Of a stretch of DNA of 64,000 bases, positions 5,043-7,774 are shown piece by piece (within the stretch, counting starts at the first letter, position 1; the number at the start of each line of letters is the position of its first letter). Under the pieces are notes generated by a model, which searched no databases, was not told where the DNA came from, and saw only the letters and a program-made list of their open reading frames with translations. Origin of the DNA: a bacterium. GTDB lineage: Bacteria; Vulcanimicrobiota; Vulcanimicrobiia; Vulcanimicrobiales; Vulcanimicrobiaceae. The stretch covers positions 105,001 to 169,000 of the forward strand of contig JAKBKY010000004.1 of NCBI GenBank assembly GCA_021832345.1. Direction: 5' to 3'. The translations under genes and the position numbers were made by a program.

Positions 5043-5438
5043 TTACACGCGCCGCCGCTTCGGCGGGCGACAACCGTTATGCGGAATGGGCGTAACATCT
5101 TTGATGAGCGTGATCTCCAGACCCGCGGCTTGCAGCGAGCGAATGGCCGCCTCGCGACCGGCACCGGGACCCTTGACGAGAACCTCGGTGGTCTTCATCC
5201 CATGTTCGATCGCCTTGCGCGCGGCGGCTTCTGCCGCCATCTGCGCGGCGAACGGCGTCGACTTCTTCGAGCCTTTAAAACCGAGATTGCCGGCTGATGC
5301 CCAAGAGATCACGTTGCCGTGACCGTCTGCAATCGTCACCAAGGTATTATTAAATGAGGCGTGGATGTGCGCAACACCTGAGGCAATATTCTTAAACTCG
5401 CGCTTGCGGCGCGTCTTGGTTTGTTTTTTTGCGGCCAA
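5043..5438 (-). CDS. rpsK: 30S ribosomal protein S11
   Basis: Platform protein of the 30S subunit that cradles the mRNA near the Shine-Dalgarno helix. The reading frame stays open upstream, but TTG at 5438 is the natural start: GGAG lies just upstream and the product begins [21 protein letters not shown], giving 131 aa, the normal S11 size. Conserved [27 protein letters not shown] and [18 protein letters not shown] are present. First gene of a transcription unit restarted by the promoter at 5598-5626 after the inserted beta-barrel gene. Confidence 0.96.
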
Positions 5439-5597
5439 CCTAAACTCCGACTCTCGTTTATCCTTCCCCGAACGACGGGGTGTCGTCGCCTCGACCCCAC
5501 AACGGAGGGTCTTCCGCGGGAATCTCATGCATCGGGCACTCGGCGATTGCGCCCGCAAGCAGAACGGTGTCGCCGGAGGGTCCGGCGCCAAGCGCTT

Positions 5598-5626
5598 ATG
5601 CTACCTGAACGGCCCCGCCCAGTCAA
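5598..5626 (-). promoter_or_regulatory. sigma70-type promoter for rpsK-rpsD-rpoA-rplQ
   Basis: On the minus strand TTGACT is followed by exactly 17 nt and TAGCAT (5/6 and 4/6 to consensus). Transcription would begin near 5591, leaving a leader of about 150 nt before the TTG of rpsK. The leader holds a 7-bp GC hairpin at 5569-5585 and could host S4-type autoregulation (inference). It lies just downstream of the inserted 441-aa gene and its terminator. Confidence 0.75.
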
Positions 5627-5659
5627 GGACCCCGTCCACAGGGCTGTGACAGAGAGCGA

Positions 5660-5685
5660 GGGACCCGGCCCGATGGCCGAGTCCC
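5660..5685 (-). terminator. Hairpin terminator after the 441-aa beta-barrel gene
   Basis: 11-bp stem (GGGACTCGGCC paired with GGCCGGGTCCC, one G-U) with a 4-nt loop, 26 nt after the stop codon on the minus strand. It is not followed by a U-run, so termination strength is uncertain. Confidence 0.6.
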
Positions 5686-5711
5686 TTTGGTCGTCCTGGT
5701 CGAACCTTCGA

Positions 5712-7037
5712 CTAGAACCTGATGCCGAGACCGACGTACGGCCCAGCCTCCGTGTAGCCGATGCCACCCGGGGTGTTCTGCTTAGCCGTGCCCTTGTTGC
5801 CGAGGAAGCCGAGGTCGAGGAAGACCGGGCTGTGCTGCGGACGGAACGTCACGCCGAGCTGGTACTTGAGGATGTTGTAGGCCAGCGTGTACGGGCCGGT
5901 TGGGCAGACGTTGATGCCGCAGTTGCCTTTGGCGTTGGGATAGTAGTAGGCGCTCCCGTAAATCGAGAAGTTCTTGTTGAGCGAGGGCAGTTTTTCTACC
6001 CCGTAACCGAACCCCTTGATGCGAGGATAACCGTAGTTCCCACTGTCGACGAGATATCCGACGCCGACGTAGATACGCGGGTTGGCGACCTTCAGGCCGA
6101 GACGGCCGTCAAAGTCGTAGTTCCGCACCTGGAAGGAGGGGACGTAGGTCTGCGTCATGGTGCCGATCGCCGTGACCATGCACTGCGGATCAGCAGCGCT
6201 GGTGCAGTTATGCGGATAGGTAAACTGGCGGTAATCACCTTCGATCATCCAGGGCAGGTTGAAGAGATTGAACTCAGCACCCGCTCGGACCGCGTACGAC
6301 GCGGTCTTGCCCGAGTTTCCTGGGCTGAACTCGTTGTAGACCTTCGGCCTGAGCATGTAGTCGCCGACGATGAAACGGTCCTGGTACGGGGTCGCGATCG
6401 GCGCCGGGGTCGGCGTCGGGGGGACCGTGGCAACAGGTGCCGGGGTCGGCGGTGGAGCGGTGGCCGGCGGCGGCGGGGTCGGCGGCAGATACCGCACGAC
6501 GACGATCCGACGGTTCGGCACCCACTGGACGTACGCGCCCATGCCTTCCGAGAGTACGCGAATAGGAACGAGAATGTGGCCCTTGTACATCATCGGCGGG
6601 ACGTCCAGTGGACGCGATTCGCCGTTGATAATGACCACCGGCTTGCCGAGCGTCACCTTGACGGAGGCGCCGGGTTTGCTGATGGTCACGGTCTTGGTCG
6701 ACCGGTTGTACTTCACCGTGGCACCCATCTGCTGGAACATCGAGCGCAGAGGGATGAGAACGGTGGTGCCACGGACTAATGCCGCCAGAACGCGCCCTTT
6801 GCGAAGGGTGTCCGGCTTGGCGTAGACGTGGTGGTTATTATACAGGATCGGATAGCGCCCCGACGGTGGGGAACCGAAATCCGCCGGCGGAGCCGCCGCA
6901 GTACCGCCCGAGGCCTGCGCAATCGCATTGGGTCCAACGTTGCCTTGCGATGCGTGGTTCGACGGGGCGGCGACTGCGTTGAGTCCCAGACCGGCTGCAA
7001 GCAGCACGGTGAGGACTCCAATGCTCAGTCGCTTCAA
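5712..7037 (-). CDS. Secreted copper-amine-oxidase-N-type domain protein with C-terminal outer-membrane beta-barrel
   Basis: 441 aa, starting at TTG 7037 behind a textbook AGGAGG. Order: Sec signal peptide (residues 1-24); two alpha/beta units of the copper amine oxidase N-terminal (stalk) fold at about 85-185 (VLIPLRSMFQQMGA, then ILVPIRVLSEGMGAYVQW); a Pro/Thr/Ala-rich linker at about 187-218; then some 220 residues of alternating amphipathic strands (NYDFDGRLGLKVANPRIYVG, YQLGVTFRP) ending GPYVGLGIRF, with a terminal Phe as in BAM-inserted barrels. Probable role: outer-membrane anchored surface protein binding peptidoglycan or polysaccharide (inference). It has no ribosomal function yet sits between rpsM and rpsK, framed by its own promoter and terminator. 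Confidence 0.8.
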   Translation of the reverse strand: MKRLSIGVLTVLLAAGLGLNAVAAPSNHASQGNVGPNAIAQASGGTAAAPPADFGSPPSGRYPILYNNHHVYAKPDTLRKGRVLAALVRGTTVLIPLRSMFQQMGATVKYNRSTKTVTISKPGASVKVTLGKPVVIINGESRPLDVPPMMYKGHILVPIRVLSEGMGAYVQWVPNRRIVVVRYLPPTPPPPATAPPPTPAPVATVPPTPTPAPIATPYQDRFIVGDYMLRPKVYNEFSPGNSGKTASYAVRAGAEFNLFNLPWMIEGDYRQFTYPHNCTSAADPQCMVTAIGTMTQTYVPSFQVRNYDFDGRLGLKVANPRIYVGVGYLVDSGNYGYPRIKGFGYGVEKLPSLNKNFSIYGSAYYYPNAKGNCGINVCPTGPYTLAYNILKYQLGVTFRPQHSPVFLDLGFLGNKGTAKQNTPGGIGYTEAGPYVGLGIRF

Positions 7038-7143
7038 GTTAGCCTCCTAAAGAGTATGTGGTGTGCTTGGCGCTAACGCCGAGCGAGTTTTGCCTTCCAG
7101 CTACCGGGATACACCCTTTGGAGTTCTCTCGTAAGCGGGAAGG

Positions 7144-7172
7144 AGTCTACTCTCTAAGAGCATACCCGGCAA
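7144..7172 (-). promoter_or_regulatory. Candidate promoter of the inserted beta-barrel gene
   Basis: Minus strand TTGCCG, 17-nt spacer, TAGACT, giving a 5' UTR of about 100 nt that ends in AGGAGG. Each hexamer matches consensus at 4 of 6. The rest of the 350-bp gap 7038-7387 holds only the terminator hairpin after rpsM. Confidence 0.45.
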
Positions 7173-7358
7173 GCGGAGAAGCCACACGCTTTCAAGCACA
7201 ATTTCCAGCGCTGCAGCGACGGCGACCTTGGCCCCAAGAGGGTTCCCGAACGTCCCGAGCCAGGATAGGGGTTCGCAGCGCCGGGACCACAATCTACGGG
7301 AGCACGTGGTCACGGCGCCACGATAGTCGCTCCGCGGGCTGGTCCCTCGAGAATACCG

Positions 7359-7382
7359 CGGGCCCGGCAGTTGCCGGGCCCG
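7359..7382 (-). terminator. Perfect GC hairpin directly after rpsM
   Basis: 10-bp perfect stem (CGGGCCCGGC / GCCGGGCCCG) with a 4-nt loop, starting 5 nt after the rpsM stop. There is no U-tract. Its position closes the spc-type operon before the inserted gene. Confidence 0.65.
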
Positions 7383-7387
7383 GGCGA

Positions 7388-7774
7388 TCACTTCTTCGTT
7401 ACGGTCTTCTTCTTCCCGGCAACCGTGCGCTTGGGGCCCTTACGGGTTCGCGCATTGGTCTTGGTTCGTTGGCCGCGCACCGGCAAACCGCGCCTGTGGC
7501 GCAGACCGCGATAGCAACCGATATCCATGAGCCGCTTGATGTTCGAGGAGACTTCACGCCGTAGATCGCCTTCGACCGTGATCGTCAACTGCTCGATCGC
7601 GTCACGGACGCGCTTCTCGTCGTCTTCGGTCATCTCTTTCACGCGCAGATCCGGGCTAATGCCTGTATGCGCCAACAGGCGGCGCGCCGTTGTTGGGCCG
7701 ATGCCGTAGATGTACGTCAACGCAATCTCGATGCGCTTTTCACGAGGAAGATCGATGCCGGAAATACGCGCCAT
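7388..7774 (-). CDS. rpsM: 30S ribosomal protein S13
   Basis: Head protein of the 30S subunit, contacting S19 and the P-site tRNA. 128 aa with [20 protein letters not shown] at the N-terminus, [13 protein letters not shown] (helix-two-turn-helix) and the basic tail [20 protein letters not shown] ending in a lysine-rich stretch. Three nt after rpmJ. S13 is normally followed at once by rpsK; here a hairpin and a 1.3-kb foreign gene intervene. Confidence 0.97.

Follow-up and report, generated by a model that had tools for sequence, protein, structure and literature searches.

Bacteria keep the gene order rpsM-rpsK-rpsD with great constancy. In the window (the whole stretch of 64,000 nucleotides analysed here), rpsM (S13; 7388-7774, minus strand) and rpsK (S11; 5043-5438, minus strand, with a TTG start at 5438 and followed by rpsD, rpoA and rplQ) are separated by an unrelated gene, and the question is what this gene encodes, whether it belongs to the ribosomal transcript and how the junction tolerates it. 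The window is part of contig C5; the genome, 2.34 Mb in size and 98% complete, comes from an uncultured family, labelled f1 here, and the relatives of the inserted protein drawn from named collections are MAGs of Candidatus Eremiobacterota (now Vulcanimicrobiota).

The gene (5712-7037, minus strand) encodes a protein of 441 amino acids and, as the initial annotation had it, begins with TTG, preceded by an AGGAGG site. A signal peptide of about residues 1-24 (6966-7037), highly conserved in the family, was recognised by inspection of the family alignment. Residues 86-180 (6498-6782) matched the Cu_amine_oxidN1 profile PF07833 with an E-value of 2.3e-24 and 85.8 bits (curated cut-off 24.2), and no other domain in the Pfam scan of the protein passed its cut-off. 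This stalk domain was retained in all 49 aligned family members and is the best-conserved portion of the protein, with many invariant residues. A profile search of the PDB returned significant E-values only for domain D1 of bacterial copper amine oxidases; the catalytic domain of these enzymes, with its topaquinone and copper ligands, was not found in the protein, where the N1 domain alone matches. Pfam scans likewise detected no SLH domain in the protein or its 48 relatives and no OmpA C-terminal domain (PF00691) in the protein or its relatives. In place of a coiled-coil stalk, which is absent, there is a proline-rich linker (residues 184-216, 6390-6488) seen in the alignment, with low pLDDT at residues 187-201.

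The single-sequence AlphaFold model of the protein was useless (pLDDT 33), and an AlphaFold2 model based on the 49-sequence alignment was used instead. Residues 221-441 (5715-6377, minus strand) formed strands of membrane length with block pLDDT values of about 82-98. Foldseek comparison of this part with the PDB gave solely outer-membrane barrels as top matches (OpcA with an E-value of 1.2e-6, OmpT and OmpG), and the TM-score against OpcA was 0.59 when normalised to OpcA. The chain ends in ...GLGIRF, with a terminal F; a signal peptide, a terminal aromatic residue and a predicted, putatively closed antiparallel barrel are the features of outer-membrane beta-barrels. Residues 221-441 are thus predicted to be a small outer-membrane beta-barrel, and the combination of signal peptide and barrel would place the protein in the outer membrane and Cu_amine_oxidN1 in the periplasm on its proline-rich linker. 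The signal peptide, stalk and C-terminal barrel named in the initial annotation were all recovered; its view that such a domain fusion is unusual does not hold within the phylum, where homologues at E<=1e-10 were present in 139 of 149 genomes, some of these matches covering the stalk domain only.

The spacing between rpsM and rpsK was then compared in 97 genomes of the phylum. Of 54 family f1 genomes, 51 have a gap of 1.9-39 kb and the remaining three one of 191-284 bp, against 582-585 bp in the sister family and 14-172 bp in all other families measured. In the sister family, a conserved ORF of 122-128 aa without Pfam match (L109-L111) fills the 582-bp gap. The stalk-barrel gene lies within the gap in 36 genomes of family f1 belonging to several genera, commonly preceded by DUF72, NTP_transf_3 and MFS genes and sometimes followed by a patatin-like gene. 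The survey of related genomes that had been proposed as a check thus bears out the locus: the gene and its position are beyond chance and conserved across genera. Other genera carry unrelated cargo in the same gap (DUF2079 and others), and therefore it is the site, not the function, that is conserved. Genus g37 appears as an insertion hotspot, where the gaps span 15-39 kb and contain numerous unrelated genes (L105, L106 and L107/L108, the latter being genome G119 with about 39 kb).

Among the barrel-bearing loci, the gap of the window is the smallest. Just upstream of the barrel gene, at 7161-7247 (minus strand), lies what is probably left of an MFS transporter gene, namely its C-terminal end; relatives have the gene intact at this place. 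The remnant matches positions 377-406 of the 410 positions of the MFS profile with 6.3 bits, compared to 3.3 bits for the highest-scoring among 1,800 shuffles, a weak match at the expected position. A search of the rest of the window genome for a homologue of this MFS gene, which had no positive control, found none. Given the 30-residue match to the end of the profile, neighbouring genes were probably deleted in the window.

Does the barrel gene belong to the ribosomal transcript? Directly 3' of the rpsM stop codon there is a terminator-like hairpin (7350-7387, minus strand; -31.2 kcal/mol, z -3.7) with no clear U tract, and comparable hairpins occur 3' of rpsM in many family members. A terminator hairpin also follows the barrel gene (5660-5685, minus strand; z -2.9); over 37 loci, the best hairpin 3' of the barrel stop had a mean energy of -29.7 kcal/mol versus -17.3 kcal/mol for shuffled sequences, and no shuffle reached the observed mean. 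Terminators on both sides had already been proposed, together with a pair of promoters. One of the pair could be located, the rpsK operon promoter TTGACT-17-TAGCAT (5598-5626, minus strand), which belongs to a block conserved in relatives as TTGACC-17/18-GGTAAGATA followed by CTTGGCGCC; for the barrel gene itself no convincing consensus promoter was found. The first hairpin of the rpsK transcript (5570-5592, minus strand), present also in relatives, has a loop of the CUCUCU type or CCUCC, which could pair with the rpsK Shine-Dalgarno sequence. Because of the hairpins after rpsM and after the barrel gene and the separate promoter of rpsK, we regard the barrel gene as a separate unit, probably outside the ribosomal transcript. 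The initial annotation suggested expression with the translation machinery; on such a view, envelope growth would be coupled to translation capacity. The barrel is indeed kept in this position in 36 genomes of several genera, as co-regulation with the ribosomal genes would have it, but it is bracketed by hairpins, rpsK has its independent promoter and the same gap carries unrelated cargo in other genera, which makes this coupling very improbable.

The most novel element of the interval, on which the initial annotation was silent, is a structured RNA leader of rpsK (5456-5559, minus strand; match to covariance model R1). It belongs to a block common to family f1 and its sister family upstream of rpsK, with an invariant TCGCCG and a near-invariant AGGCGACGACA. 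The alignment and its pair counts define three stems on the minus strand: P2 (5533-5555; 5555-5549 with 5539-5533), closing an invariant UCGCC loop at 5546-5542, P3 (5493-5524; 5524-5520 with 5497-5493) and P4 (5466-5480; 5480-5477 with 5469-5466). In the 39 distinct leader sequences, 91.5% of the cells over P2, P3, P4 and the loop pairing were paired. Changes on both sides occurred in 14 of 21 pairs, amounting to 88 such cells compared to 21.5 in shuffled alignments (0 of 500 shuffles reaching this value), and sliding the pairing partners abolished the signal. A covariance-model alignment of 52 leaders, an alignment that is itself fitted to the structure, gave the same result. In folding energy, the leader did not fall below shuffled sequences (z -0.01). 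An invariant GGCGA (5486-5490, minus strand) is complementary to the P2 loop and can pair with it in 39 of 39 sequences; since this pairing is possible in all of them but invariant, and thus without covariation, the UCGCC:GGCGA pseudoknot is put forward as a proposal only. The P4 loop, of UCGU type, is complementary to an ACGA just upstream, with which it may form a second pseudoknot; UCGU was present in this loop in 31 of 48 leaders, where 3.6 were expected.

Among the 85 genomes of family f1 and its sister in which rpsK was found, 62 carry the leader, 5-53 nt upstream of rpsK. Each genome has a single strong copy, save for G079, whose two copies include one at the end of a contig; the remaining strong matches were located at contig ends or, in the case of G059, ahead of a masked rpsK. 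The 23 genomes without leader comprise 14 of genus g5, 8 of genus g35 and G108. In these (for example L061, L070 and L161) the rpsK promoter is kept, mostly together with the CTTGGCGCC start, and there is a short hairpin only; their rpsK operon evidently manages without the leader. The leader model reported no match in the other families searched. Rfam scans gave two chance matches at E>5 only for the window interval and none at E<=1 for five relatives, the known S4 leader family in Rfam did not match the rpsK leader, and a literature search for riboswitches in Eremiobacterota found no paper. A likeness of GGCGACGA to a stretch of 16S rRNA was judged to be within chance and was not used. What characterises an r-leader is an RNA that is conserved, covaries and lies in the 5' UTR of a ribosomal protein operon, and such an RNA was found here. 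We describe the leader as a previously uncatalogued, strongly covarying RNA that probably regulates the rpsK operon; it enlarges the set of r-leaders, and does so in a phylum for which hardly any genetics exists.

Since the ribosomal genes downstream have their own promoter and RNA leader, the gap probably tolerates insertions. The leader is present in genomes with a short gap (G035, G083) as well as in the sister family, and by parsimony the promoter and leader most likely came first and the cargo later. The whole family keeps the rpsM-rpsK junction broken and filled with cargo, and the leader offers a concrete, testable reason for this tolerance.

As to what the leader senses, S4 is the ribosomal protein that represses the alpha operon of E. 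coli, via a pseudoknot (PMC10931766, PMC7247131). The rpsK operon contains rpsD, and for this reason we infer S4, by analogy and with somewhat better than even confidence, as the likeliest ligand: S4 in excess would occupy the leader and thereby stop translation of rpsK. That the leader instead binds another ligand (S11, L17 or a small molecule), or merely stabilises the mRNA, is a reading we lean against without dismissing it, as none of the S4 leaders in Rfam matched, whereas the leader does precede an operon with rpsD, whose product usually autoregulates it (PMC10931766; PMC7247131).

How long the barrel gene has resided in the gap can be judged from its paralogues. The window genome carries an 85%-identical copy on contig C9 and a third, more distant copy with 51% identity (C5:194260-195447 of G000, L054), the latter near cytochrome-oxidase-like and Crp-like genes as seen by inspection. 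Two syntenic paralogue types could be distinguished, type A at the rps locus (the window gene) and type B, the C9 type, beside tolC/hlyD. Type B has a context common to many relatives, namely a tolC-like gene, an hlyD-like gene, a FlK-type thioesterase, the barrel, an unknown ORF and a gene judged nitrilase-like by inspection. Nearly all B copies start with TTG and the rps-locus copies mostly with GTG, and the signal peptide is very conserved (L007-L102). In the whole-protein tree the rps-locus copies group far above chance but do not form one clade (10 changes vs 24.5 shuffled), and the A and B copies of the window genome pair with each other. The two sequences are unevenly alike: at the DNA level, the segment 6321-7037 (minus strand) and the paralogue at C9:6768 (L053 6768-7484) are about 97% identical, with the similarity starting exactly at the start codon and none upstream of it, while past about 6321, over the barrel, identity is mostly 60-88%. 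Third positions of shared residues agreed to 92-97% in the 5' half versus 64% in the barrel. From this DNA comparison, 6321-7037 is a gene-conversion tract by which the stalk half was homogenised, the barrel half being diverged. High synonymous identity in the 5' half was seen in the window genome only, among 11 A/B pairs, and gene conversion as a general rule between A and B copies was therefore rejected. If the C9 copy had been transposed to the rps locus recently, a 97% identical 5' half, the TTG start of C9-type copies and the pairing of both copies in whole-protein trees would also result. We consider such a move unlikely, since the similarity begins precisely at the start codon, the barrel halves are much older and the probable MFS remnant sits where relatives have their MFS gene, from which residence at the rps locus appears to be old.

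It remains to ask what the stalk-barrel does. To our knowledge, no experiment shows PF07833 binding peptidoglycan, and a literature search for Cu_amine_oxidN1 in the envelope found nothing relevant. An outer membrane and thin peptidoglycan have been seen in cultured Vulcanimicrobium (PMC9758169). In the window genome, Omp85 is present, SLH proteins were not found and the sole PF00691 match adjoins fliM, hence its single OmpA domain is flagellar, presumably MotB. Long SLH proteins occur in 14 of 57 near-complete genomes of family f1 and were never seen together with an rps-locus barrel (36 genomes); the two that were read have the layout of OmpM, combining SLH with a stretch that resembles a coiled coil and a long portion rich in beta structure. 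OmpM-like proteins are thus restricted to some members of the family (L162 and L163 together with further genomes of genera g9-g37), in a distribution complementary to the rps-locus barrel. This complementarity is suggestive only, because about two changes suffice to explain it on a weakly supported rpsM+rpsK tree. A strict one-for-one replacement of OmpM was rejected, as OmpM genomes also carry stalk-barrel homologues elsewhere.

With no SLH protein or OmpM and no non-flagellar OmpA domain in the window genome, the envelope-tethering role suggested by the initial annotation is plausible. We infer, as our best guess and at just short of even confidence, an OmpM-like protein that would link the outer membrane to the cell wall via a non-SLH, wall-facing domain, possibly serving as a small channel too. 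Alternatively, the protein could be an ordinary small porin or surface protein of the outer membrane, with Cu_amine_oxidN1 as a mere spacer without tethering function and its diversity in the surface loops of the barrel. The barrel halves do diverge faster than the stalks between copies, the best folds are OpcA (an adhesin) and the OmpT and OmpG types, many genomes keep both copies and the B copy adjoins an efflux outer-membrane gene. A mere spacer, however, fits poorly with a stalk domain that is the most conserved part, rich in invariant residues and kept in 49 of 49 members, and we hold this second role to be a sizeable possibility that falls clearly short of even. If the stalk-barrel is a tether, it would represent a further solution to connecting outer membrane and wall, beside OmpM, in diderm Terrabacteria, in a family in which only some clades have OmpM.

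Taken together, the interval rather probably holds two independent elements, a stalk-barrel unit that may tether the outer membrane to the wall and an rpsK promoter and leader that may serve S4 autoregulation. A split of the alpha operon would have created a cargo site between rpsM and rpsK, occupied as its own transcription unit by one of two paralogues, the one that belongs to the rps locus, and the rpsK-rpsD-rpoA-rplQ operon, with its separate promoter, would be autoregulated by a ribosomal protein through its structured 5' leader. The original observation is thus confirmed and its interpretation supported in part; besides the leader, the family-wide gap, the probable MFS remnant and the 97%-identical 5' half of the paralogue go beyond the initial annotation. 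More speculatively, and in our view doubtfully, this order of Eremiobacterota may have split the alpha operon with a new, possibly pseudoknotted class of S4 r-leader before rpsK, and one clade may have given up an ancestral OmpM tether in favour of the Cu_amine_oxidN1 stalk-barrel, a copy of which would have come to lie in the resulting gap.

Compared to known systems, the stalk shares the Cu_amine_oxidN1 domain with D1 of E. coli copper amine oxidase, in a weak sequence match, but lacks the catalytic domain. Like OmpA and Pal, the protein is an outer-membrane protein whose periplasmic domain may face peptidoglycan, yet it has no PF00691 and its domain order is the reverse of OmpA. OmpM, the SLH-linker-barrel tether of the outer membrane in Negativicutes and other Terrabacteria (PMC10628300), likewise has a periplasmic N-terminal domain, a linker and a C-terminal outer-membrane barrel on one chain, in diderms of the same broad grouping; the stalk-barrel, however, has Cu_amine_oxidN1 and a proline-rich linker instead of SLH and coiled coil, and a smaller barrel of about 220 aa. 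As for the leader, known S4 r-leaders are found upstream of rpsM/rpsK/rpsD, and those ahead of rpsM or rpsD in other phyla are of unrelated structure (PMC10931766, PMC7247131); they include the Alpha_RBS of E. coli, the Bacilli rpsD leader and those of Clostridia, Fusobacteriales, Flavobacteria and Bacteroidia (PMC7247131). The leader described here differs from these in its structure, in its place before rpsK rather than before rpsM or rpsD and in matching no Rfam model, but like them it is a structured 5' leader of an rpsD-containing operon, and with the E. coli leader it would share a pseudoknot.
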